Assembly: GCA_025998875.1 (NCBI GenBank)
Contig: AP024675.1
Span: 1,009,589-1,073,588 of the forward strand
Reading direction: 5' to 3'
Length of the DNA: 64,000 nt
Origin: Bacteroidota bacterium
GTDB lineage: Bacteria > Bacteroidota > Rhodothermia > JANXDC01
The position numbers were made by a program, and so were the translations under genes. Numbering within the stretch: position 1 is the first letter of the stretch; each line of letters starts with the position of its first letter. Positions 23,750 through 35,855 of the stretch are shown one piece after another. The notes under the pieces were generated by a model. The model worked only from the letters and a program-made list of their open reading frames with translations, was not told where the DNA came from and searched no databases.

Positions 23750-24289
23750 ATGCGGTGCGTCGGGCTGCTTGCCATCCTGGGGCTGTGGGCCCTTTCGGCC
23801 AACGCCCAGCAGAAAATCGGCTACATCGACTCGGAGCAGATTCTGAACAGGTTGCCCGAATATCAGGACGCCCAGCAGCGCCTAGAACGCCTGGCCCAGC
23901 AGTGGCAACAACAGTTGGAGGCGATGCAGCGGGAAATCGACCAGCTGTTTCGCGACTATCAGGCCCGGGAGGTGCTGTATACAGAGGAGATGCGGCGCCA
24001 GAAGCAGCAGGAGATCCTCAACAAGGAGCGCGCGCTGGAGCAGTTTCGTGAGCAGAAGTTCGGCCCCCAGGGCGAGCTGTTCCAGCAGCAGACCCAGCTG
24101 ATCCGGCCCATTCAGGAACGGGTCTTGCAGGCGCTGCGCCAGGTGGCCGAGGAACAGGGTTATGATTTTGTTTTTGATAGATCGGGCTCGCTGCTGTTTC
24201 TCTATGCGCGCCCGCAGTACGATCTAACCGATCGGGTGCTGGAGAAGCTCGGCATCAGCGCCACACCCGCACCGACACGAAGACAGTAA
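23750..24289 (+). CDS. OmpH/Skp-family periplasmic chaperone, copy 1
   Basis: A 179-residue exported protein with a signal peptide (about 1-20, ending SANAQ), the OmpH opening KIGYIDSEQILNRLPEYQDAQ-type block, a long Gln/Glu-rich coiled coil (about 40-130), and a C-terminal segment ending in DLTDRVLEKLGI. Skp-like proteins hold unfolded outer-membrane proteins in the periplasm for BamA. It starts 13 bp after bamA, and a paralogue follows directly, as in many Bacteroidota. Confidence 0.9.
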   Translation: MRCVGLLAILGLWALSANAQQKIGYIDSEQILNRLPEYQDAQQRLERLAQQWQQQLEAMQREIDQLFRDYQAREVLYTEEMRRQKQQEILNKERALEQFREQKFGPQGELFQQQTQLIRPIQERVLQALRQVAEEQGYDFVFDRSGSLLFLYARPQYDLTDRVLEKLGISATPAPTRRQ

Positions 24290-24318
24290 CTTGGCAAACC
24301 AACAAAGGAGCGCTATAC

Positions 24319-24867
24319 ATGATGCGGTATTGCCTTTTTGTCCTTTTTCTCCTCGGGCATTCGGCGTGGGCTCAACAGCCGCAGTCAGCCGCTTCCACCC
24401 AGTCGGCCGCTGTTGCCGTGCCGATAGGCTATACGCGGGTGGACTTCATCCTCTCTAAGCTGCCCGAAGTGGCCGCCGTGCAGAAGCAGCTGGAAAACCT
24501 GGCGCAGCGCCACCAGGCTGAATATCAGCAGAAGCTGCAGGATTTCGATAAGCAACTGCAGGACTACCAGCGCCGGGTAGCCCTCATGTCCCCTGATGCC
24601 CGACAGCGTCGTGAGCAGGAGCTAGCCACCCTGCAGAGCCAGCTGCAGCAGTTCGCCATGGAGAAAAACCGGGAACTGGAGCAAAAGGAAGCCGAGCTCA
24701 TGCAGCCCATTCTGGACCGCATCCAGAAGGCTATCGAGGAGGTAGCCCGGGAGCGGCGTCTGGCCCTGGTCCTTAACACCGGCATAGGAGCGAGCCCGAT
24801 TTTGCTCTACGCCGATGACCGATACGACATCACAGAGGCGGTGCTCAAAAAACTGGGGATCAATTGA
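24319..24867 (+). CDS. OmpH/Skp-family periplasmic chaperone, copy 2
   Basis: A 182-residue paralogue of the preceding gene. It has a signal peptide (about 1-18, ending SAWAQ), a Ser/Ala/Gln-rich linker, the OmpH block IGYTRVDFILSKLPEV, a coiled coil (about 55-140) and the C-terminal DITEAVLKKLGI that mirrors copy 1. AAAGGAG lies upstream of the ATG. The two copies probably form homo- or hetero-trimers that serve BamA; this is inference from the family. Confidence 0.9.
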   Translation: MMRYCLFVLFLLGHSAWAQQPQSAASTQSAAVAVPIGYTRVDFILSKLPEVAAVQKQLENLAQRHQAEYQQKLQDFDKQLQDYQRRVALMSPDARQRREQELATLQSQLQQFAMEKNRELEQKEAELMQPILDRIQKAIEEVARERRLALVLNTGIGASPILLYADDRYDITEAVLKKLGIN

Positions 24868-24895
24868 TCCTGACTCGGCAGGTGCGGACTGTGTC

Positions 24896-24925
24896 TTGAC
24901 TGGCCTCCGGTCATGCGCGTATATT
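24896..24925 (+). promoter_or_regulatory. Promoter of the tRNA-Gly gene
   Basis: TTGACT (24896-24901) and TATATT (24920-24925) are separated by 18 bp, and the predicted start of transcription is about 8 bp before the mature tRNA 5' end. This is the best sigma70-like site in the window. Confidence 0.65.
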
Positions 24926-24939
24926 AGCACCTGCTACAG

Positions 24940-25013
24940 GCGGGACTAGCTCAGTTGGTTAGAGCGCAACCTTGCCAAGGTTGAGGTCGCGGGTTCGAAT
25001 CCCGTGTCCCGCT
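24940..25013 (+). tRNA. tRNA-Gly (anticodon GCC)
   Basis: A full cloverleaf can be drawn: acceptor GCGGGAC pairs with GTCCCGC, the D arm contains GCTCAGTTGGTTAGAGC, the anticodon stem CAACC/GGTTG encloses TTGCCAA with anticodon GCC, and the T arm is GCGGG-TTCGAAT-CCCGT. The discriminator base is T. CCA is not encoded, so the CCA-adding enzyme is needed. The gene is monocistronic, with its own promoter and terminator. Confidence 0.97.
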
Positions 25014-25021
25014 CTCCGGTC

Positions 25022-25046
25022 CCCGGGCAAAAGCCCGGGTTTTTTT
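25022..25046 (+). terminator. Intrinsic terminator of tRNA-Gly
   Basis: A 7-bp stem CCCGGGC (25022-25028) and GCCCGGG (25033-25039) with an AAAA loop is followed by seven T. It starts nine bases after the tRNA and ends 21 bp before the dedA start codon. Confidence 0.92.
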
Positions 25047-25067
25047 GTTTTCTCCGCAGAGGACGCC

Positions 25068-25700
25068 ATGGATAGTGCCGAGTGGGTGGCTTTCCTGCGC
25101 GGGTTGCCGCCTGTAGGGTTGTATCTGGCCATCTGGGCGGTGGCCTACCTGGAGAACGTGCTTCCCCCCATCCCGGGCGACGTGGTTGTGGTCTTTGGAG
25201 GGTATCTGGCCGGTCTGGGTATGCTCAACCCCTGGGGGCTATGGTTCGGAGCGGTCGTAGCCAGTACACTCGGGTTTATGACCATGTACCGGATCGGCTA
25301 TCGGCTGGGGCCGGCCCTCTTCAGTCGGAGGCGATTTTTGTTTCTCTCCAACCGTCATCTGCGGGCAGCCCGTCGCTGGCTGATTCGTTATGGCCTTATC
25401 GCCGTGGTAGTGAATCGCTTTCTGAGCGGTACGCGTTCGGTGATTTCCCTGGTGGCTGGCCTGGCCCATATGCCCTTGGGCCCCGTAACGATCGCCGCCG
25501 CCCTGAGCACCTCCCTGTGGACGGGCCTGCTCATCGCGCTGGGATACTGGCTGGGCGATCGATGGCAAGAGGTGAGCCAGTATTTGTCCCGCTACAGCCA
25601 GCTTCTGCTCCTTGTCCTCGTTGCGGGCGCCTCGCTCTATGTGGCCCTGCGCCTTCTGCGCCGGCGCAGGGAAAAGACGGGGCCGGCCGAATCCGGATAG
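25068..25700 (+). CDS. DedA-family membrane protein
   Basis: A 210-residue inner-membrane protein with about five hydrophobic segments. Conserved features are AYLENVLPPIPGDVVVVFGGYLA (acidic residue and P-x-P in the first re-entrant region) and NRFLSGTRSVISLVAGLAHM (the family R-F-x-P/S-G-x-R block). DedA proteins are linked to membrane homeostasis and, for some members, recycling of undecaprenyl phosphate or phospholipid flipping. The ATG at 25068 follows AGAGGA. It lies just after the tRNA terminator, so its promoter is unclear. Downstream genes are also envelope-related. Confidence 0.9.
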   Translation: MDSAEWVAFLRGLPPVGLYLAIWAVAYLENVLPPIPGDVVVVFGGYLAGLGMLNPWGLWFGAVVASTLGFMTMYRIGYRLGPALFSRRRFLFLSNRHLRAARRWLIRYGLIAVVVNRFLSGTRSVISLVAGLAHMPLGPVTIAAALSTSLWTGLLIALGYWLGDRWQEVSQYLSRYSQLLLLVLVAGASLYVALRLLRRRREKTGPAESG

Positions 25701-25764
25701 GGTTGGCATTTGAGGCGTTGTTCTGCTACTTTGATGCTGTGCTTCGGGAAGCTTCGGGGGCTTG

Positions 25765-26877
25765 GTGCGCATCGCCTACGGGATCAGCGGTGAGGGCAGA
25801 GGGCATACCTCACGGGCCCTGGCCATTGCGGAGGCACTGGAAGCCCAGGGACATGAGGTGCTCTACGTTGCCGGAGGAACGGCCTACGAGATCCTGACCC
25901 AGCTCCGCAAACCCGTGTTGCGGGTCCCGGCCCTGGAGCATGTGCTCTGCGACAACCGGATCCTGCTGTGGCGTACCGCCCGGCATAATCTTCCCCATCT
26001 GCTCCGGGCCCGCCGCTGGATCGAGGCGGTGGCGCGGGCGCTGGAGGAGTTCGGGGCCGAATGGCTGATCAACGATTTTGAATACTACAGCGCCCGTGCT
26101 GCCCGCCTGACGGGGGTGCCTGTGGTGAATCTGAACCACCAGCAGATTCTCACGGAGACCCGCTACCCGATTCCCTGGCGCTACTTGTCCGATGCCTGGC
26201 TGGTGCGCCTGATCGTGCGCTGGATCACGGCCCCGCCGAGCCGTCTGACCATCATCCCGAGCTTCCTCTCCCTGCCCCTCCGACGTCCGGACCGGGTCCG
26301 ACTCGTTCCGCCCGTGCTCCGCTCCGCCGTGCTGGAACAGGATCCGGGGGAAGGGGAGCATGTGCTCGTGTATCTAAACCGGAGCCATGGAGCCGAGGGC
26401 CTGCTTGGGATGTTGAGCCGGTTTGCACCCGTGCCCTTTCGCGTGTATGGCTTCCCTACCCTTATCCCCGTGGGGCGAAATATCGTGTTGCGGCCTTTGG
26501 GGCTGGGGCATTTTCTGCGGGATCTGGCCTCGGCACGTGCGGTGATCGCCACGGCGGGTTTTACGCTCATATCCGAGGCCCTATATCTGGGCAAACCCCT
26601 TCTGGTGTTGCCCAATCGGGGGATTTTCGAGCAGACCTTCAACGCCTGGTGCCTGCAGAAGAGCGGTCAGGGCATGGCCGTCATTGGACGGGCCCCGCGG
26701 ATGGAAGATATCGCCTCGTTTCTGGAGTGCCTTCCCCTCTACCGGCGGGCCATTGGCTCCGGGTTCGAGCCGGGCAATGGGACGGTGCTTCAGCTGCTTG
26801 AGGCGCTATGGCGTCAGGGGAGGGGAACGACACGCGGCCGTGTTTTGTTCGCGGAAAGCGGCTCTGTATATTCGTAA
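25765..26877 (+). CDS. MJ1255/VC2487-type glycosyltransferase
   Basis: A 370-residue GT-B fold protein, related in layout to UDP-GlcNAc:lipid transferases such as MurG. It opens with IAYGISGEGRGHTSRALAIAEAL (acceptor loop with GxGH), and has the donor-side block ATAGFTLISEALYLGKPLLVLP with EQTFNAWCLQ, as in the TIGR00661-like family. The probable start is the GTG at 25765 after GGGGG; a TTG one codon upstream is possible. The donor and acceptor are unknown. Its position before a serine palmitoyltransferase-like gene suggests a glycolipid role, but this is inference. Confidence 0.72.
   Translation: MRIAYGISGEGRGHTSRALAIAEALEAQGHEVLYVAGGTAYEILTQLRKPVLRVPALEHVLCDNRILLWRTARHNLPHLLRARRWIEAVARALEEFGAEWLINDFEYYSARAARLTGVPVVNLNHQQILTETRYPIPWRYLSDAWLVRLIVRWITAPPSRLTIIPSFLSLPLRRPDRVRLVPPVLRSAVLEQDPGEGEHVLVYLNRSHGAEGLLGMLSRFAPVPFRVYGFPTLIPVGRNIVLRPLGLGHFLRDLASARAVIATAGFTLISEALYLGKPLLVLPNRGIFEQTFNAWCLQKSGQGMAVIGRAPRMEDIASFLECLPLYRRAIGSGFEPGNGTVLQLLEALWRQGRGTTRGRVLFAESGSVYS
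26845..26872 (+). promoter_or_regulatory. Possible promoter for the alpha-oxoamine synthase gene
   Basis: TTGTTC (26845-26850) and TATATT (26867-26872) are 16 bp apart and lie at the 3' end of the glycosyltransferase gene, about 38 bp before the next ATG. The match is moderate and partly coding. Confidence 0.3.
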
Positions 26878-26909
26878 ACGTTTTGGGCTTCAAACAAAGG
26901 GCGAGCGTT

Positions 26910-28139
26910 ATGTCCCAGACACCCATGACCCGGGCTGCCGACCTGTTCGAGAAGTGCCGTCAATTCACCCGGCCACAGGAAGTGGCCGCCATGGGCTTGC
27001 ACCCCTATTTCAAGCCCGTCTCGGAGAATTACGGCACCCGCGTCGTCATCGAAGGCCGTACGGTCGTCATGGCCGGGTCCAACAACTATCTGGGATTGAC
27101 CACCGATCCACGGGTCATTGAGGCGGCCAAGAAAGCCATCGAGAAATACGGTACGGGATGTACGGGTTCGCGCTACCTCAACGGTACGCTGGACATCCAC
27201 CTCGAACTGGAGGAACGCCTGGCCGCCTTCATGGGCAAGGAGGCCTGTGTGCTCTTTAGCACGGGCTATCAGACCAATCAGGGGGTAATTCAGGCGCTGG
27301 CCGGCAAGGGGGACCTGATATTTTCCGACAAGGACAACCATGCCAGTATCGTCGTGGGCACGATGGTCTCCCTGGCCGAGACGATTCGCTACCGACATAA
27401 CGACATCGAACATCTGCGCCGGCTTCTGGAACGCGCCGACCCCGCGGCGGCCAAGTTGATCGTCACCGACGGGGTCTTTTCCATGAGCGGCGCCCTGGTC
27501 CGCTTGCCTGAGCTGGTCCAGCTGGCCAAGGAGTTTGGCGCCAAGCTCATGGTCGACGACGCGCACGCGGTAGGCGTCATAGGACCGGGCGGTCGGGGTA
27601 CAGCGGCGTATTTCGGGCTTACCGATGCAGTCGATCTCATCACGGGCACCTTCAGCAAGAGCTTTGCCTCCCTGGGCGGCTTTGTGGTCGGCGAGGCGCC
27701 CGTAATCCAATGGATCCGATACAAGTCTCCGGCGCATATCTTCAGCGCCTCCATGCCCCCGGCCAACGTGGCCACGGTTATGAAGTGTCTGGAGATCCTG
27801 CAGGAAGAGCCCTGGCGCCTGGAGCGGTTGCATGAGATCTCCGAGTACATGCGCCGTAACTTCCGCCAGATGGGCTTTAACATCTGGGAAAGCCAGACGC
27901 CCATTATCCCCGTCGTGATCGGGGACGATATGCAGTGCTTCCGCTTCTGGCGCGATCTTTTCGATGAGGGCGTCTACGTCAACGCCGTCATCAGCCCGGC
28001 TGTGCCGCCCGGTCAGGCCCTGCTGCGCACCAGCTATATGGCTACCCACACCCAGGAAGAGCTCGACTTTATTCTGGAAGCGTTCTACAAGGTGGGGGTC
28101 AAACATGGGATTATCGACCGAAACGGCCGACGGGACTAA
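26910..28139 (+). CDS. Alpha-oxoamine synthase, probable serine palmitoyltransferase
   Basis: A 409-residue PLP enzyme of the AONS/KBL/SPT family, which condenses an amino acid with an acyl-CoA. Key residues are visible: the PLP lysine Lys250 (TFSKSFASLGG), His144 (DKDNHASIV) that stacks on PLP, and Asp217/His219 (VDDAHAVGV). AGSNNYLGLT at the N-terminus and the motif CTGSRYLNGT are family-wide. The N-terminal FEKCRQFT...AMGLHPYF block resembles Bacteroidota serine palmitoyltransferases more than BioF or KBL. No biotin genes or threonine dehydrogenase lie nearby. The next gene overlaps by 35 bp and encodes an N-acyltransferase, which would fit ceramide synthesis. KBL remains the alternative. 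Confidence 0.72.
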   Translation: MSQTPMTRAADLFEKCRQFTRPQEVAAMGLHPYFKPVSENYGTRVVIEGRTVVMAGSNNYLGLTTDPRVIEAAKKAIEKYGTGCTGSRYLNGTLDIHLELEERLAAFMGKEACVLFSTGYQTNQGVIQALAGKGDLIFSDKDNHASIVVGTMVSLAETIRYRHNDIEHLRRLLERADPAAAKLIVTDGVFSMSGALVRLPELVQLAKEFGAKLMVDDAHAVGVIGPGGRGTAAYFGLTDAVDLITGTFSKSFASLGGFVVGEAPVIQWIRYKSPAHIFSASMPPANVATVMKCLEILQEEPWRLERLHEISEYMRRNFRQMGFNIWESQTPIIPVVIGDDMQCFRFWRDLFDEGVYVNAVISPAVPPGQALLRTSYMATHTQEELDFILEAFYKVGVKHGIIDRNGRRD

Positions 28140-29280
28140 AACGCACACCGCTGCCCCGTTTCGGCTCTTCGCGGTGCAGGAACGCCGGGATTGGCTTCGA
28201 TTCCTGGACTTCCCCTATCGGTTGTATCAACGGGATCCGAACTGGGTCCCCCCGCTTCGCCTGGAGCAGAAGACCCTGCTGGACCCGGCGCGCAACCCGT
28301 TTTTCGAGCATTCCCGGATGGCTCTTTTTCTGGCTGAGCGGGAGGGTCGGGTGATCGGGCGCATTGCCGCCATCGAAAACGGCAACCATCTGGCCACACA
28401 CCAGGACGGGGTGGGGTTTTTCGGCTTCTTCGAGGTCGTGCCGGAATATCCCGTGGCGGCTGCGCTCCTGGAGCAGGCGGCCCAATGGCTGCGAGAGCGC
28501 GGGCTTCTTTTCATGCGCGGACCGGCCAATCCCTCCCTCAACGATACGGCCGGGCTGCTTGTAGAGGGCTTCGAGCGCCCACCGGTTTTGCTCATGCCCT
28601 ACAACCCGCCCTACTACGTGGAGTTCATAGAGCGTTTCGGGTTGCGCAAGGTCATGGGCATGTATGCCTACTATGTGGATGTGGAGACCGTCCAGATGGA
28701 GAAGCTGGAGCGGGGGGTAAAGATCGTCCACCACCGCTTGCCCGGCCTTTCGGTGCGCAAAGTCGACCTGCGTCACTTTGCCCGCGAGGCCCGCATCGTA
28801 CACCACATCTACAACGAGGCCTGGCGGGACAACTGGGGCTTTGTGCCCATGACCGAGCGGGAGTTCGAGCATCTGGCCGGCGCGCTGCGTGCCATCGTCG
28901 ACCCCCACATCGTCTTTATCGCCGAGCTCAATGGCCAGCCCGTTGGATTTTCCGTCTCCCTACCCAACCTGAACGAAGCCCTGATTCATATCCGCGACGG
29001 CCGATTGCTACCCTTCGGTATCTTTCGGCTTCTCTGGCAGACCCGCGTGCGCCGGATCCAGGGTATCCGGACCATCATCATGGGCGTGCTTCCGGCCTAT
29101 CGGGGTCGGGGTATCGATGCCGTTATGCATTATCATACCATCCAGGAGGGTATACGGCGTGGCTACCGATATGCGGAGCTCAGCTGGGTGCTGGAGAACA
29201 ACGAGATGATGAACCGGGCGGCGCGCTCCATCGGCGCCGTGCCGTATAAGCGATACGCCATCTACGAGATGCCCCTCTGA
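28105..29280 (+). CDS. GNAT-like N-acyltransferase (possible bacterial ceramide synthase type)
   Basis: A 391-residue protein with an N-terminal region (FRLFAVQ..DFPYRLYQRDPNWVPPL) and a C-terminal GNAT-like core with the acetyl-CoA loop VLPAYRGRGID around residue 330. Proteins of this layout are common in Bacteroidota and are annotated as uncharacterised N-acetyltransferases. The ATG at 28105 lies inside the preceding gene, a strong sign of translational coupling with the serine palmitoyltransferase-like enzyme. Caulobacter ceramide synthase was reported as a GNAT-type acyltransferase next to SPT, so N-acylation of the sphingoid base is a reasonable hypothesis; the identity is not proven by sequence here. 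Confidence 0.65.
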   Translation: MGLSTETADGTKTHTAAPFRLFAVQERRDWLRFLDFPYRLYQRDPNWVPPLRLEQKTLLDPARNPFFEHSRMALFLAEREGRVIGRIAAIENGNHLATHQDGVGFFGFFEVVPEYPVAAALLEQAAQWLRERGLLFMRGPANPSLNDTAGLLVEGFERPPVLLMPYNPPYYVEFIERFGLRKVMGMYAYYVDVETVQMEKLERGVKIVHHRLPGLSVRKVDLRHFAREARIVHHIYNEAWRDNWGFVPMTEREFEHLAGALRAIVDPHIVFIAELNGQPVGFSVSLPNLNEALIHIRDGRLLPFGIFRLLWQTRVRRIQGIRTIIMGVLPAYRGRGIDAVMHYHTIQEGIRRGYRYAELSWVLENNEMMNRAARSIGAVPYKRYAIYEMPL

Positions 29281-29281
29281 G

Positions 29282-29980
29282 ATGTGGGACCGGATTCGCT
29301 TCGTATACTGCGATCTGGATGATACCCTCCTAGACCACTCCGGTGCAGAGCGCCGGGCGCTCCGGGAGGTTCAGCAGGCCTATCCGGAGCTTGCCCGTCT
29401 CCGAGGGGGATATCGACTCTACCGCCGCATCAATCAGATGCTCTGGGACGCCTACGGACGTGGGGAGATCGGGCGCGAAGCGCTGCGCAAGCTCCGCTTT
29501 GCCCTCTGGTTGCGCCTGCTCGGAGGGGATCCGGGTCGGTGGGCGGAGGTGGAGGCCGCCTACTTAAACCGGTATGCGGCCCACTGGCGCTGGCTTCCCG
29601 GGGCGCGGAGGGCCTGGTTATCTCTGGGTCGGCGCTGGCCGCTGGGGTTGCTTTCCAACGGGTTGCTGGAAATTCAGCGCGCCAAACTGGCCCGTTTTCC
29701 CGAGTTGCAGCAGGCCCGGGTTGCTATTCTGGCCGAAGAGGTGGGGTTGCGCAAGCCCGATCCGGCTATTTTCGAGCTGGCCCTGGAGCGAGCAGGCCTC
29801 CGAGCCGAAGAGGTGCTCGTTATCGGGGACAGCTACGAGACGGATATCGCCCCCGCCCGGGCGCTCGGTATGCGCACGCTCTGGATCCATCCCGATCACC
29901 CGGTGAGCCTGCCGGCCGACGCGATCGCGCCCTCCCTGTTTGCCTGGACACGTACGCTGCAGAAGGAGCATGTCCTGTGA
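29282..29980 (+). CDS. HAD-superfamily hydrolase (YjjG/PGP-like)
   Basis: A 232-residue phosphatase-like protein with HAD motif I YCDLDDTLLD (nucleophile Asp10, acid Asp12), motif II LLSNG near residue 124, and motifs III/IV in GLRKPDPAIF and IGDSYETDIAPA. The helical cap lies between motifs I and II. It starts one base after the GNAT-like gene and its stop overlaps the next start, so it belongs to the same operon. The substrate is unknown; nucleotides, sugar phosphates or a lipid phosphate are all possible. Confidence 0.85.
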   Translation: MWDRIRFVYCDLDDTLLDHSGAERRALREVQQAYPELARLRGGYRLYRRINQMLWDAYGRGEIGREALRKLRFALWLRLLGGDPGRWAEVEAAYLNRYAAHWRWLPGARRAWLSLGRRWPLGLLSNGLLEIQRAKLARFPELQQARVAILAEEVGLRKPDPAIFELALERAGLRAEEVLVIGDSYETDIAPARALGMRTLWIHPDHPVSLPADAIAPSLFAWTRTLQKEHVL

Positions 29981-30453
29981 ACATCCTGCGGATCTGGGTT
30001 TTTTGCCTGACCCTCTGGGGTCTGATCGGAGAGCTCCGAGGCCAGCCCGTCGTCGGAGGCCCCCTCGGGGTGGGGGTGCAATTGGGGCCTGTGACCGGCC
30101 TGACGGCCAAACAGTTTCTCGACAGGCGTCATGCGCTTGAGGGGCTTGTGGCCTGGCGACTGGATAAATACTTTTTTGCCGAGGTACACCTGAGCCGACA
30201 CTGGCTCGCACAGCGCCTTCAGGAGGTGCCCGGCCGCATCGTCTACTACGCCGGTCCCGGCCTGTATGGGCGTTTTGAGTCCGATCGGGAACGGGGCCAT
30301 CGGGATCGGTGGGGGATAAGTGGCCTCGGAGGTATGGCGCTCTTCCTGGGCCGGATCGAGTTTTACATGCAGTTCAGCCCCAAATTCACGCTGTGGCCCG
30401 CCACCACGCTGGATATGACCGGGGGGCTGGGCGGGCGATTGTATCTGTTCTGA
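29977..30453 (+). CDS. Small exported, probably outer-membrane beta-barrel, protein
   Basis: A 158-residue hypothetical protein. It starts with GTG at 29977, overlapping the HAD stop (GTGA), with an AGAAGGAG site 8 bases upstream that decides the start. A signal peptide (about 1-23, ending LRGQP) is followed by alternating glycine/aromatic and charged segments, and the last residue is phenylalanine (GGRLYLF), as in many small outer-membrane barrels. I do not recognise a family. Its place within the putative lipid operon suggests a role at the outer membrane, but no function can be assigned. Confidence 0.65.
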   Translation: MNILRIWVFCLTLWGLIGELRGQPVVGGPLGVGVQLGPVTGLTAKQFLDRRHALEGLVAWRLDKYFFAEVHLSRHWLAQRLQEVPGRIVYYAGPGLYGRFESDRERGHRDRWGISGLGGMALFLGRIEFYMQFSPKFTLWPATTLDMTGGLGGRLYLF

Positions 30454-30457
30454 AGAG

Positions 30458-31225
30458 ATGCCTGTTCGCCTCTTTGTGACGGACATCGACGGGTGTCTGG
30501 CCGAGCCCTTCCGGCCCTTTGACTGGGCGGCCTTCCAGCGACTTCGTGCCTGGCAGCGACGCGCCCGATCCGATCCCCGATATCCGCCCATTACGTTGCT
30601 GACTGGACGCCCCCTGCCCTATGCGGAGGCCGTAGCGCAGGCACTCGATCTTGAGGGGCCGTTCGTCTTCGAGAGCGGGGGTGGGCTTTTTTCCCTGCAT
30701 ACCTACCAACTCGAGTGGGCCCGGTCTATCTCCCCAGAACAGTGGCGCCAGCTCGAGGAAGCCCGAGCCTGGGTGCTGGAGACGTACGTGGTCCGGGAGT
30801 CGGCCCTCTTTTACGAATACAGCAAGCGCACGCAGATCGGCCTGGTCAGTCCGGATACAGCGCTCATCGAGCGGCTTGAAAGCCAGATGCGGCCCGTGGT
30901 GGCCGAACGGTTCCCGGATCTCCTGTTGCATCGCACCCCTATTTCCCTGGACCTGGTCGCCCGGGGCACGGATAAAGGCACCGGACTGGAGCTGTTATGT
31001 CAGGCTTGGGGGGTGAAACCCAAAGAGGTAGCCTACATAGGAGACTCCTCCGGGGATCTGCCCGCGCTCAAACGAGTCGGATTTGCTTTCGCGCCGGAGA
31101 ACGCTTCCGAAAGCGTGCGCACCGCCGGCGGAATCCGGCTCCTTTCGGCCCCTTCTGTGGAAGCCGTTGAGATGGCCTATCGGTGGTGTGTGATCCACAA
31201 CGGGGCGTTTGTAAAAAGCACGTAA
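30458..31225 (+). CDS. HAD-IIB family phosphatase
   Basis: A 255-residue HAD protein with motif I FVTDIDGCLAEP, motif II LLTGRPLPY, a cap domain (about residues 80-165), the lysine GTDKGTGLELL near 175, and motif IV YIGDSSGDLPAL. This matches the Cof/sucrose-phosphatase/mannosyl-phosphoglycerate phosphatase group. It starts four bases after the small exported protein gene. Its substrate is unknown; a sugar phosphate or a phosphorylated lipid headgroup would suit the neighbourhood. It is distinct from the mpgP gene at 49.6 kb. Confidence 0.82.
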   Translation: MPVRLFVTDIDGCLAEPFRPFDWAAFQRLRAWQRRARSDPRYPPITLLTGRPLPYAEAVAQALDLEGPFVFESGGGLFSLHTYQLEWARSISPEQWRQLEEARAWVLETYVVRESALFYEYSKRTQIGLVSPDTALIERLESQMRPVVAERFPDLLLHRTPISLDLVARGTDKGTGLELLCQAWGVKPKEVAYIGDSSGDLPALKRVGFAFAPENASESVRTAGGIRLLSAPSVEAVEMAYRWCVIHNGAFVKST

Positions 31226-31318
31226 CGGGGATCCCGGCAGTGGCTCAGCCCCTCGGGGATTCGTAATATACCCCGTCCTCAGCTTCAAGGATAAGCCTAT
31301 AGAAAAAGGAGGACGTCT

Positions 31319-33079
31319 ATGGGGCGTTGGGGCACTATACTGGCCGGGCTGTGGGGGGCGATGTTGCTTGTTGCCTCGGCTACGGCCCAGAATCCGGGGC
31401 CGGGCACGCGCACGGTGGCCATTGTGAACGCGCGCATCGTGCCTGTATCCGGACCGGAGATCGAACGGGGCACGATCGTCATCCGCGATGGGCTGATCGT
31501 CGCTGTGGGGCCGAACGTAGCCGTTCCGGCCGATGCGGATACGATCAATGCCGCGGGGCTTACGGTTTATCCCGGCTTTATCGACGCGCGTTCTTTTGTG
31601 GGCATACCCCGACCCCAGCAGGCCGGTCCGGGGCAGGGGCCTGGTCTCCGTCCTGCCGCCGGACAACAGCAGGTTTTTTCCGGAGATCCCACGCCGGAGC
31701 AGATGGGGCTACAGCCCACCCGATCGGCCATGGAGCTTTTCCAGCCCGGGGATGCTTCCGTGCGCACCTGGCGGGAGGTCGGATTTACGGCGGCCGTGGT
31801 GACCCCGCGTGATGGATTTATGGCGGGCAGGGCGAGCCTGCTTCTGCTGGGCAGCGTGCCGGATCGAGATCGCCCCTTTGTGTCTATGCCGCCGTGGGGA
31901 TATGAGGCCGAGGCGCTTGCGCTCAAACCCGACGTGGGGTTGTTTGTGCAGTTTCAGTCCGCCCGCGGTGTTTATCCCTCCACCACCATGGCGGTGATGG
32001 CCATGATCCGCCAGCTGGGGCATGATGCTCGATACCTAGACGCTGTGCTTGCCGCCTACGAGCGGGATCCGCGCAACCTGCCCCGACCGACACGCGATCC
32101 CATCCGGGAGGCCCTGATCCCCTTCTACAAGGGGCAAAAGCCCGTACTCTTCGAGACTCCCGATGCCCGCTCCGTCTGGCGCGCGCTCAGCCTGAGCCAG
32201 GAGGTGGGCTGGAAGCCGATACTGACCGGCATTGAGGAGCCGGATCAGGTCTTGGAACGGTTGCAGAACGCCGGTCTGCCCATCGTGCTTTCCCTGCGCT
32301 TGCCCCGCGAAGCGGATACCTCGCGCGCGGCCCGGGAACGGCGCAACCGGGCTACAGAGGAGATGCGTCGACTCATGGACCGCCAGGAGCAGGCTCGCAA
32401 AGCGCGCCTAGAGGCCTATGCCCGGTTACTCAATGGGAATCCGGCCGTGGCGCTGGCTACGGCCAACGTGGAGCCGGCGCAGATCCGAACCAACCTCCGT
32501 CGCCTGGTGGAGGCGGGGGCTTCGAAAGAGGCCGTGCTTCGGGCGCTGACGCTCAATGCGGCTCGCATCTACGGGGTAGATCGGCAGCTGGGCTCCATTG
32601 AGCCGGGCAAGATCGCCAACCTCGTGATTACCCAGGGGGATTACTTCGACCGCAACGGGCAGGTGCGCTATGTGTTCGTGGCCGGTGAGCGTTTCCCCGT
32701 TGAGGGGCGCCCGGCTCCCTCCGGTCCCGCCGGACGTCAGCCTGCCGGCAGGCCCGCTGGGGGGGCGGGGATCAGCTTACAGGGCGCCTGGGCGCTGGCC
32801 ATCGAAAGCCCGCAGGGAACCCTGCAGGGACGTCTGGAGCTGGAGCAGAACGGGGAGGCCCTCTCGGGACGGATTTCCGTCAACGCGCCCATCGAAATCA
32901 GCCTCATCGGCGGTCGAGTTTCCGGATCCGAGGTCATACTGGAGATGTCCGTCTCCTTTCAGGGGCAGAGCTTCTCCTTCCCCATGCGCGGCACGGTTTC
33001 CGGGGACACCATGGTCGGCACGTTCCCGGTACCCGGGGGTGGGAACGGACAGTGGTCCGCCCGGCGGATCCCGAATTGA
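31319..33079 (+). CDS. Exported amidohydrolase-family protein lacking the HxH motif, with a C-terminal beta-rich domain
   Basis: A 586-residue protein with a signal peptide (about 1-23, ending ASATAQ). The amidohydrolase composite domain starts NARIVPVSG and ends with GSIEPGKIANLVITQGDYF. At the usual metal site the sequence is PGFIDARSFVG where active members have DxHxH, so the first two ligands are missing. A Pro/Gly-rich linker (about 463-482) leads to a beta-rich C-terminal domain (about 483-586) of unknown family, repeated in pattern LEQNGEALSGRI...GTVSGDTMVGTF. It is the first of three tandem paralogues; AAAGGAGG precedes the ATG. Catalysis is doubtful; a binding or partner role is possible. 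Confidence 0.78.
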   Translation: MGRWGTILAGLWGAMLLVASATAQNPGPGTRTVAIVNARIVPVSGPEIERGTIVIRDGLIVAVGPNVAVPADADTINAAGLTVYPGFIDARSFVGIPRPQQAGPGQGPGLRPAAGQQQVFSGDPTPEQMGLQPTRSAMELFQPGDASVRTWREVGFTAAVVTPRDGFMAGRASLLLLGSVPDRDRPFVSMPPWGYEAEALALKPDVGLFVQFQSARGVYPSTTMAVMAMIRQLGHDARYLDAVLAAYERDPRNLPRPTRDPIREALIPFYKGQKPVLFETPDARSVWRALSLSQEVGWKPILTGIEEPDQVLERLQNAGLPIVLSLRLPREADTSRAARERRNRATEEMRRLMDRQEQARKARLEAYARLLNGNPAVALATANVEPAQIRTNLRRLVEAGASKEAVLRALTLNAARIYGVDRQLGSIEPGKIANLVITQGDYFDRNGQVRYVFVAGERFPVEGRPAPSGPAGRQPAGRPAGGAGISLQGAWALAIESPQGTLQGRLELEQNGEALSGRISVNAPIEISLIGGRVSGSEVILEMSVSFQGQSFSFPMRGTVSGDTMVGTFPVPGGGNGQWSARRIPN

Positions 33080-33093
33080 AGGAGGAAGGAGCT

Positions 33094-34551
33094 ATGAAAA
33101 GCATAGCCTTGTTTGTGTCGCTGCTGCTGACAGCCGCTGTGGGCACCGCCCAGAACGTGGTCTTGATCAAAGGCGGTACCGTGCTCACCGTAACACGGGG
33201 CACGTTGGAGAACACGGACATCCTGATCCGGGACGGTAAGATCGCCCAGATCGGCCGCGATCTGGCCGCTCCGCCCGGAGCACAGGTGATCGATGCGCGG
33301 GGCAAATACATCATGCCCGGCATCATCGATGCGCACTCCCATATGGCTATCGACAACGTTAACGAATCGACCAACCCCGTCACGGCCGAGGTGCGTATTC
33401 GGGATGTGGTCAACCCGTATGAGATCAACATCTACCGGGCGCTGGCCGGCGGGGTGACCACGATCCACTCCATGCATGGCTCGGCGAACGTGATCGGCGG
33501 TCAGCCCGTGACCATGAAGCTCCGCTATGGGGAGCCCGTGGAGCGGATGATCGTTCAGGACGCCCCTCGGACGATCAAGTTCGCGTTGGGCGAAAACCCC
33601 ACGCGTGTGCATGGACGAGCCAGTCAGGGTCAGTTCGGAGGAGGACGGGCCAGCGTCAATCCCTCAACACGCATGGGCGTCGAGCAGGTCATGCGCAAGG
33701 CCTTCGAAATGGCCCGTCAGTACATGGCCCAGTGGGATGCCTATGAAAAGGCCCGCCAGGCCTGGGAACGCAACCGGCGTCGGGGTCCGGAGCCCGTTCC
33801 GCCCCGCAAAGACGAACGCCTCGAGACGCTGGCCGCCATCCTGCGCGGAGAGGTGATCGTGCACTGCCATTCCTATCGGGCCGATGAGATCCTCATGGTC
33901 CTGCGCGTCTTCCGCGATTTCGGGATCAAGAGGCTCGTCTTTCAACACGTGCTCGAGGGCTACAAGGTGGCTCGGGAGCTGGCCGAATTCGGCGCCATGG
34001 CCTCCACCTTTTCGGACTGGTGGGCCTATAAGTTCGAGGTCTATTACGCCACCCCGTATAACGCGGCTATCATGCACAGCTACGGGGTGAACGTTTCCTT
34101 GAACTCCGACTCCGATGAGCTGGTCCGGCGCCTTTATCACGAGGCGGCCAAGGCCGTACGCTACGGAGGGGTGCCCGAAGACGCCGCGCTGGCTATGATC
34201 ACGATCAATCCGGCCAAGCAGATCGGGCTCGATCACCGGATCGGCTCCATCGAGGTGGGCAAGGATGCCGATCTGGCCATCTTCAACGCGCACCCCCTTT
34301 CCGTATACGCCGTCTGCGAGATGACCCTGGTGGACGGGGTCGTGCGTTTCGATCGCTCCCGGGATCCCGACGATATGCGCCTTGTGGTCGATCCGGATGA
34401 GTCCATCGAAGACGCCTATGTGCAATTCAATCCGGCCGACTACGACCGTTGCATGCTCGGCGCCGAAGAGCACGAGGGAGTCTGGATGGGCGGCGTAGAG
34501 CTATTCGGGCTTGTCGAGGAATTTCTAGCCCAGAAGGAGGACGGACGATGA
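33094..34551 (+). CDS. Exported amidohydrolase with intact metal motif
   Basis: A 485-residue imidazolonepropionase-like amidohydrolase with a signal peptide (about 1-19, ending GTAQ). The HxH ligands are present (GIIDAHSHMA), a second histidine pair lies in VHCHSYRADE, a further one in FQHVLEGYK, and the distal aspartate region is SLNSDSDEL. The C-terminal GSIEVGKDADLAIF is the family's closing strand. The real start at 33094 follows a GGAGGAAGGAG site. Its stop overlaps the third paralogue's ATG. It is the only one of the three that looks catalytically complete; the substrate (peptide, imide or heterocycle) is unknown. Confidence 0.85.
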   Translation: MKSIALFVSLLLTAAVGTAQNVVLIKGGTVLTVTRGTLENTDILIRDGKIAQIGRDLAAPPGAQVIDARGKYIMPGIIDAHSHMAIDNVNESTNPVTAEVRIRDVVNPYEINIYRALAGGVTTIHSMHGSANVIGGQPVTMKLRYGEPVERMIVQDAPRTIKFALGENPTRVHGRASQGQFGGGRASVNPSTRMGVEQVMRKAFEMARQYMAQWDAYEKARQAWERNRRRGPEPVPPRKDERLETLAAILRGEVIVHCHSYRADEILMVLRVFRDFGIKRLVFQHVLEGYKVARELAEFGAMASTFSDWWAYKFEVYYATPYNAAIMHSYGVNVSLNSDSDELVRRLYHEAAKAVRYGGVPEDAALAMITINPAKQIGLDHRIGSIEVGKDADLAIFNAHPLSVYAVCEMTLVDGVVRFDRSRDPDDMRLVVDPDESIEDAYVQFNPADYDRCMLGAEEHEGVWMGGVELFGLVEEFLAQKEDGR

Positions 34552-35855
34552 TCCGGCATCTGGTTTCGATCGCGTTAGCCGGCCTGCTTGCCACCGGCCT
34601 GGCCTACCGCGTTCATGCGCAGGGCATCCCGCCGTCCCGCACCGGGACGTTTGCGCTCACGAACGCCCGTATTGTGACCGTCTCCGGGGGAGTCATCGAG
34701 CGAGGTACGCTCCTGATCCAAAACGGAAAGATCGCCGCCCTGGGCCCCAACGTCACAATTCCCTCCGGCGCGGAGGTGATCGATTGTTCCGGCCTGAGCA
34801 TCTATCCGGGGCTCATCAACAGCTATACCCAGGTCGGCCTCATCGAAATCGGCCAGGTGCCGGAAACGCGGGACGAAAACGAGGTGGGCAACTACAATCC
34901 CCACATGCTCGCCCTGACGGCCATCAATCCGGCCAGCACGCATATTCCCGTGACCCGCGTCAACGGGGTGACGACCGTCATTTCGGCGCCCACGGGCGGA
35001 CTGCTCTCCGGACAGGCTACGCTGATCAATCTGCATGGCTACACGCCGGAGCAGATGGCTGTACGTCCTTCGGTGGGGGTGGTCCTGAACTTCCCCTCCA
35101 TGGGGCGCCGCTCGCTCTTTCAGCAACAGTCCCAGGAAGAGCGCCGGCGCCAGTATGAGCAGCAGCTACGCCAGCTCAATGAGCTCTGGCGCAAGGCCGT
35201 GGTCTACAATCGGGCCTGGGAGGCCTATGAGCGCAATCCGTCGGGAGAAAAACCCCTCTGGGATCAGCGTCTGGAGGCGCTCAGGCCGGTTGTGCGGGGT
35301 GAGCTGCCGTTTATCATCAACGTGAACGCCGAGCGGGACATTCTGGCCGCCATCCGGTGGGTGAAGGAAAACCAGATCAAGGCCATTTTCGCCGGCGTGG
35401 CCGAAGGGTGGCGAGTGGCCGACAGCCTGGCACAGGCCGGCATCCCCTGCATCGTGGGGCCTGTGCTGGCTATGCCCACCCGTCCCTATGACCGCTACGA
35501 TCGAGCGTATGCGAATGCGGCTCTTCTGGCCCGGGCCGGCGTCAAAATCGCCATCGGCACCTTCGATTACTACAACGCGCGCAACCTGGCTCACCACGCC
35601 GGTATGGCCGCCGCCTTCGGCCTGAGCCGCGAGGAGGCGCTCAAGGCCATTACGCTCTACCCGGCCCAGATCTGGGGAGTAGCCGACCGCATGGGCTCCC
35701 TGGAGGTCGGAAAAGACGCCACGCTCATCGTCACCGACGGCGATCCCCTGGAGATCCGCACCCAGATCCGGTATCTGTTCATCAACGGCTGGATGGTGCC
35801 CCTGGTCAGCCGGCACACCCAGCTCTGGGAGGAATACCGCAACCGGGCCTTCTAA
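34548..35855 (+). CDS. Exported amidohydrolase-family protein lacking the HxH motif
   Basis: A 435-residue paralogue with a signal peptide (about 1-24, ending RVHAQG) and the amidohydrolase frame from NARIVTVSGG to GSLEVGKDATLIVTDGDP. At the metal site it reads PGLINSYTQVG, without histidines, like the first gene of the trio. The ATG overlaps the previous TGA (ATGA) and follows AGAAGGAGG. In many Bacteroidota two amidohydrolase halves occur as one ~1000-residue protein; here the parts are separate genes, so heteromeric assembly with the intact middle protein is a reasonable idea. Confidence 0.8.
   Translation: MIRHLVSIALAGLLATGLAYRVHAQGIPPSRTGTFALTNARIVTVSGGVIERGTLLIQNGKIAALGPNVTIPSGAEVIDCSGLSIYPGLINSYTQVGLIEIGQVPETRDENEVGNYNPHMLALTAINPASTHIPVTRVNGVTTVISAPTGGLLSGQATLINLHGYTPEQMAVRPSVGVVLNFPSMGRRSLFQQQSQEERRRQYEQQLRQLNELWRKAVVYNRAWEAYERNPSGEKPLWDQRLEALRPVVRGELPFIINVNAERDILAAIRWVKENQIKAIFAGVAEGWRVADSLAQAGIPCIVGPVLAMPTRPYDRYDRAYANAALLARAGVKIAIGTFDYYNARNLAHHAGMAAAFGLSREEALKAITLYPAQIWGVADRMGSLEVGKDATLIVTDGDPLEIRTQIRYLFINGWMVPLVSRHTQLWEEYRNRAF

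Follow-up and report, generated by a model that had tools for sequence, protein, structure and literature searches.

Genes at the locus

The window is the whole stretch of DNA that was analysed, 64,000 nucleotides from a bacterium of the class Rhodothermia, and all positions are given in its numbering unless a genome position is stated. We found seven protein genes on the same strand, together with a tRNA gene and a promoter-like motif:

24940..25014, + strand, tRNA-Gly(gcc) (ARAGORN)
25068..25700, + strand, DedA/VTT membrane protein (PF09335, 56 bits)
25762..26877, + strand, Glyco_trans_1_3 / MJ1255-like glycosyltransferase, GT (PF13528, 222 bits)
26843..26873, + strand, Bacteroidota-type promoter-like motif, inside the 3′ end of the GT gene (pattern match)
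26910..28139, + strand, serine palmitoyltransferase, SPT, 409 aa, PLP lysine K250 (NF047600, 518 bits; S. multivorum SPT, 435 bits; Ala280)
28105..29280, + strand, bCerS-family (CC_1154/YghO) tandem-GNAT N-acyltransferase, 391 aa, predicted ceramide synthase (YghO homology; AF2 model)
29282..29980, + strand, HAD1, YjjG/YfnB-like HAD-IA phosphatase (TIGR02254, 134 bits)
29977..30453, + strand, exported 158-aa protein, predicted outer-membrane barrel, GTG start (AF2; Foldseek)
30458..31225, + strand, HAD2, HAD-IIB (Cof/SPP/archaeal phosphoglycolate-phosphatase-like) phosphatase (PF08282, 58 bits)

An earlier note on this DNA had described the seven genes, a 35-bp overlap of SPT with GNAT and spacings of −4 to +4 bp further on, and all of these are real by the open reading frames and the sequence: HAD1 starts +1 bp after GNAT, the barrel gene lies at −4 bp with respect to HAD1, and the HAD-IIB gene at +4 bp after the barrel gene. 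The start that gives a protein of SPT length, ATG 26910 (409 aa), is most likely the true one; an alternative at 26808 would extend the protein only by a tail running across the GT gene. The flanks hold two tandem Skp/OmpH-like periplasmic chaperone genes after BamA (23750-24867; 34% identical to each other) and, 3′ of the locus, three tandem amidohydrolase-like genes (31319-35855).

A strong intrinsic terminator (25022-25039) follows tRNA-Gly(gcc), which is not part of the lipid operon. The DedA start lies 29 bp beyond, and this gap leaves scant room for a promoter of DedA's own. About 37 bp before SPT is the motif TTTTG-N19-TATATTCG, a consensus that we take to be a Bacteroidota promoter type; it is the sole match in 24800-31400, where 0.05 are expected from mononucleotide shuffles, and it recurs in a sister genome (L004) with identical spacing and a different spacer sequence. 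Its position suggests that SPT is transcribed independently of DedA and GT, and we infer that SPT, GNAT, HAD1, the barrel gene and HAD2 would share one transcript.

Conservation of gene order and SPT-GNAT linkage

In a congeneric genome the order of BamA, both Skp-like genes, tRNA-Gly, DedA, GT, SPT, GNAT, HAD, barrel, HAD-IIB and the first amidohydrolase gene is kept, with protein identities of 59-94% across the syntenic stretch (SPT 94%, GNAT 79%, barrel 77%, HAD2 74%, DedA 69%, GT 67%, HAD1 ~61%). The arrangement is thus not due to chance, and the conservation of gene order in relatives, a point that the earlier note had wanted checked, extends in this sister species to the whole order. In the sister genome HAD1 is matched in two reading frames with an overlap of only a few bases (L172:3255-3846); the gene is frameshifted in the assembly, through real decay or sequencing error.

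SPT and GNAT genes nearly always occur together. Among 118 Bacteroidota genomes, 85 have both, 29 neither, two SPT only and two GNAT only (Fisher 6e-23, with relatedness among genomes uncorrected); presence was called at 440 bits (SPT) and 340 bits (GNAT), thresholds chosen visually to lie between two groups of scores. One genome counted as having SPT only (G085) carries a lower-scoring GNAT directly beside it, and the GNAT is present in all 60 of the class relatives searched. Where both are present, they stand side by side in 27 of 29 genomes of the class and in 20 of 56 other Bacteroidota. Public genomes yielded 80 GNAT loci, drawn from about ten phyla and, being picked by similarity to Rhodothermia GNATs, a non-random sample; SPT lies directly upstream of GNAT at 66 of them. 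The 66 include Bacteroidota sensu lato, Zixibacteria, KSB1, Gemmatimonadota, Acidobacteria, Electryonea and Ignavibacteria; loci lacking SPT directly upstream include Neomarinimicrobiota, Thermoflexus and Anaerolineae. Sphingolipid genes of the Bacteroides type have been reported as unlinked in sphingolipid-producing Bacteroidota (PMC11334938), whereas SPT and GNAT are adjacent here and in 47 of the 85 sampled Bacteroidota genomes with both. Against that remark, the SPT gene and that of the bCerS-family GNAT show a genetic link that spans Bacteroidota and several further phyla.

Accessory genes

HAD1 lies directly downstream of bCerS at 28 of the 80 GNAT loci and often stands third, after SPT and bCerS, in Rhodothermales; its TIGR02254 score is below that model's cut-off of 160. 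GT directly precedes SPT at 12 of the 80. It reaches the PF13528 cut-off and not that of TIGR00661 (MJ1255/VC2487; 169.1 bits against 195.9), and is a candidate glycosyltransferase for ceramide or another lipid. DedA, the barrel and HAD2 were found at none of the 80. DedA is UptA-like at a score under the model cut-off (NF052604, 92 bits against 250). The AF2 model of the 158-aa protein (pLDDT 84) has a helix at residues 3-20, predicted to be a signal helix, and eight strands, and its top Foldseek match is the OprF barrel 4rlc (E 1.1e-4); the protein is predicted to be an eight-stranded outer-membrane barrel of the OmpA/OprF type. Matches of HAD2 to TAL effectors in the PDB search were set aside as repeat artefacts of a short stretch.

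The neighbours invite wider readings of the locus. GT, SPT, bCerS and HAD1 of Rhodothermales might form a dedicated glycosylated-ceramide module in which HAD1 dephosphorylates an intermediate or the headgroup. We regard this as unlikely; if true, phosphate removal by HAD1 would be a step missing from the described Caulobacter or Bacteroides routes. We give still less credit to a single operon of all seven genes for sphingolipid synthesis and export, in which the HADs would remove phosphate from headgroup intermediates and the barrel, at the outer membrane, would act on the lipid or move it. The tight spacing and overlaps across five genes, the order retained in the sister species and the recurrence of HAD1 in Rhodothermales are in its favour, but the barrel and HAD2 families are class-wide (the former in 45 of 60 class genomes, elsewhere in the genome; the latter, single-copy, in 38 of 40, with no linkage to SPT beyond the genus) and yet are missing from every other GNAT locus, as is DedA, and the only Bacteroidota-type promoter-like motif of the region divides SPT from DedA and GT.

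The earlier note's idea of one sphingolipid system that includes both phosphatases and the barrel is not supported: HAD1 recurs at the locus, but the barrel and HAD-IIB genes are found there in this genus alone and have other genomic positions in the rest of the class. Likewise, of the two genes that it placed before the core, GT recurs, less often than HAD1, but DedA does not. By gene order in the genomes compared, DedA, the barrel and HAD-IIB are genus-level neighbours only; HAD2 is probably a passenger, and the phosphatases and small barrel protein are mostly local passengers. This leaves a ceramide core of SPT and bCerS, with HAD1 and the upstream GT as the accessories that merit a test; a part for the barrel, DedA or HAD-IIB is unlikely.

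Other neighbours were seen in relatives. In many of them the locus comes after genes for ParA-ParB and a small conserved protein. In five Balneolales loci (L045, L064, L097, L103 and L110) two GT4-type glycosyltransferases lie directly before SPT-bCerS, with CerR adjoining, which suggests a glycosphingolipid.

Identity of the PLP enzyme

NF047600 (CFB-group SPT) scored best of 39 NCBIfam models, at 518 bits, ahead of TIGR00858 bioF (398 bits) and glycine C-acetyltransferase (388 and 330 bits). This falls short of the curated cut-off of 640 bits, so the claim is of an SPT by relationship and not of formal NF047600 membership. Only four of the 118 Bacteroidota genomes pass that cut-off, nearly all Bacteroidota relatives scoring below it, and the model appears to be tuned to a subclade. 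The closest solved structure in a PDB search is the Sphingobacterium multivorum SPT (435 bits; E. coli KBL 271, CFAT 230). A published marker separates SulA, with Lys281, from SPT, with Ala at that position, which lies 30 residues beyond the PLP lysine (PMC9304779). In the 409-aa numbering the PLP lysine is K250 and the position of SulA Lys281 is Ala280; Ala is found there in 64 of 65 aligned enzymes, the single Lys belonging to a CFAT-like enzyme (L165). By profile, closest solved structure and Ala marker, the PLP enzyme is an SPT, as the earlier note had read it. The match in profile and structure puts it in the same subgroup as the SPTs of Bacteroides (BT_0870) and Sphingobacterium sphingolipid synthesis, but it differs in scoring under the NF047600 cut-off.

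Two other members of the alpha-oxoamine synthase superfamily were weighed. If the enzyme were a cysteate fatty-acyl transferase (CFAT/SulA), the operon would make sulfonolipids, which Salinibacter, of the same class, contains (PMC2596770), and a paralogue of the GNAT does adjoin the SulA-type enzyme of L165; the SulA-specific lysine is however lacking here, and the structure score of SPT is well above that of CFAT. We ruled this identity out on the Lys/Ala marker and hold the sulfonolipid operon to be highly improbable. Most improbable of all is a KBL or BioF-type synthase acting on small substrates beside an unrelated acetyltransferase, an identity whose KBL form the earlier note gave as a possible refutation; it is compatible with the superfamily and the bioF score, but was rejected on profile and structure scores, in which SPT is best by a wide margin, and further opposed by a separate BioF-like alpha-oxoamine paralogue elsewhere in the genome and by the strict co-occurrence of the PLP enzyme with a bCerS-family protein.

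The N-acyltransferase

The SPT is accompanied by a GNAT that is single-copy in the genome and homologous along its entire length to YghO of E. coli BL21 (34% identity over 374 residues; E 7e-80; hhalign E 1.5e-71). Its AF2 model (pLDDT 81.7) shows a tandem GNAT fold in a fold search; a sequence search of the PDB gave no significant match. The yghO gene (ECD_02850) is listed as the counterpart of CC_1154 (PMC9386255), the Caulobacter N-acyltransferase needed for ceramide (PMC11324152), whose product has been named bCerS and is cytoplasmic (PMC11087976). In BL21 the yghO neighbourhood holds acyl-AMP ligase, epimerase/CerR, ACP and spt genes. By homology, shown against YghO, the GNAT belongs to the bCerS family (CC_1154/bCerS/YghO); the family tree leaves the attachment point of YghO within the GNAT family unsettled. 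The earlier proposal of a GNAT-type ceramide synthase gains support from family membership, from co-occurrence with SPT and from adjacency across phyla. At least one member of the GNAT family adjoins a sulfonolipid-type enzyme, so that membership of the family does not by itself determine which amine is acylated.

The idea that Caulobacter bCerS is a PF04339 (FemAB_like) protein was dropped: YghO has no Pfam match and yet is a full-length homologue of the GNAT. In profile searches PF04339 is absent from the source genome and rare in Bacteroidota.

In L165 (3888-6339) a bCerS-superfamily GNAT lies convergent with the SulA-type enzyme, which has the MFAKS lysine, in a genome lacking a high-scoring SPT; this paralogue is a candidate N-acyltransferase for capnine (sulfonolipid) synthesis. 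In two Acidobacteria MAGs (L098:5173-7098 and L112:2766-4706) the GNAT lies inside a longer open frame of ~640 aa, possibly a fusion.

CerR and the proposed route

A CerR homologue is encoded in the source genome (L128) ~78 kb upstream of the locus, at genome ~957.9-958.9 kb. It is 30% identical to E. coli CerR and 50% identical to a CerR-type gene beside SPT-bCerS in another genome (L092). CerR homologues adjoin SPT-bCerS in Balneolales, KSB1, Acidobacteria and others, and adjoin bCerS in Neomarinimicrobiota. With SPT and bCerS at the locus and a CerR homologue on the same chromosome, the known three-enzyme route is encoded.

From the enzyme families, SPT would form 3-ketosphinganine by condensing L-serine and a long-chain acyl thioester; bCerS, from its family and linkage, would add the second acyl chain to the amine; and the CerR-type NAD-dependent reductase would yield (dihydro)ceramide by reducing the 3-keto group. 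A sugar headgroup may then be added by the MJ1255-like GT, a weak step in this scheme, and HAD1 recurs in Rhodothermales as a possible partner. The locus is very likely a ceramide biosynthesis locus, with CerR at a distance and the sugar step weak, and the organism is probably able to make sphingolipids by a route already described.

The same three enzymes are found among the ceramide genes of Caulobacter crescentus and E. coli BL21 (spt, CC_1154/yghO bCerS, CC_1164 CerR, AcpR, AasR). Unlike those, the present locus has no dedicated ACP or acyl-ACP synthetase beside SPT, its CerR is unlinked, HAD1, the barrel and HAD-IIB adjoin instead, and its SPT is of the CFB subgroup. Sulfonolipid synthesis shares the enzyme superfamily and, in L165, a related GNAT beside the CFAT-type enzyme, and is set apart by the lysine marker.

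A literature search, which covered few subscription papers, found no report of ceramides in Rhodothermus and no description of the present gene combination. The earlier note's statement that the combination is not described thus stands for the genes but not for the ceramide route. As judged from sequence, this would be an ordinary but well supported ceramide operon, its mechanism following from families and linkage, and, within the literature searched, apparently a first for the class; it would extend the known bacterial route to ceramide, in full, to the deep-branching Rhodothermia. In two other Bacteroidota (L166 and L167), whose SPT passes the NF047600 cut-off, SPT, a bCerS-like GNAT and CerR are contiguous.
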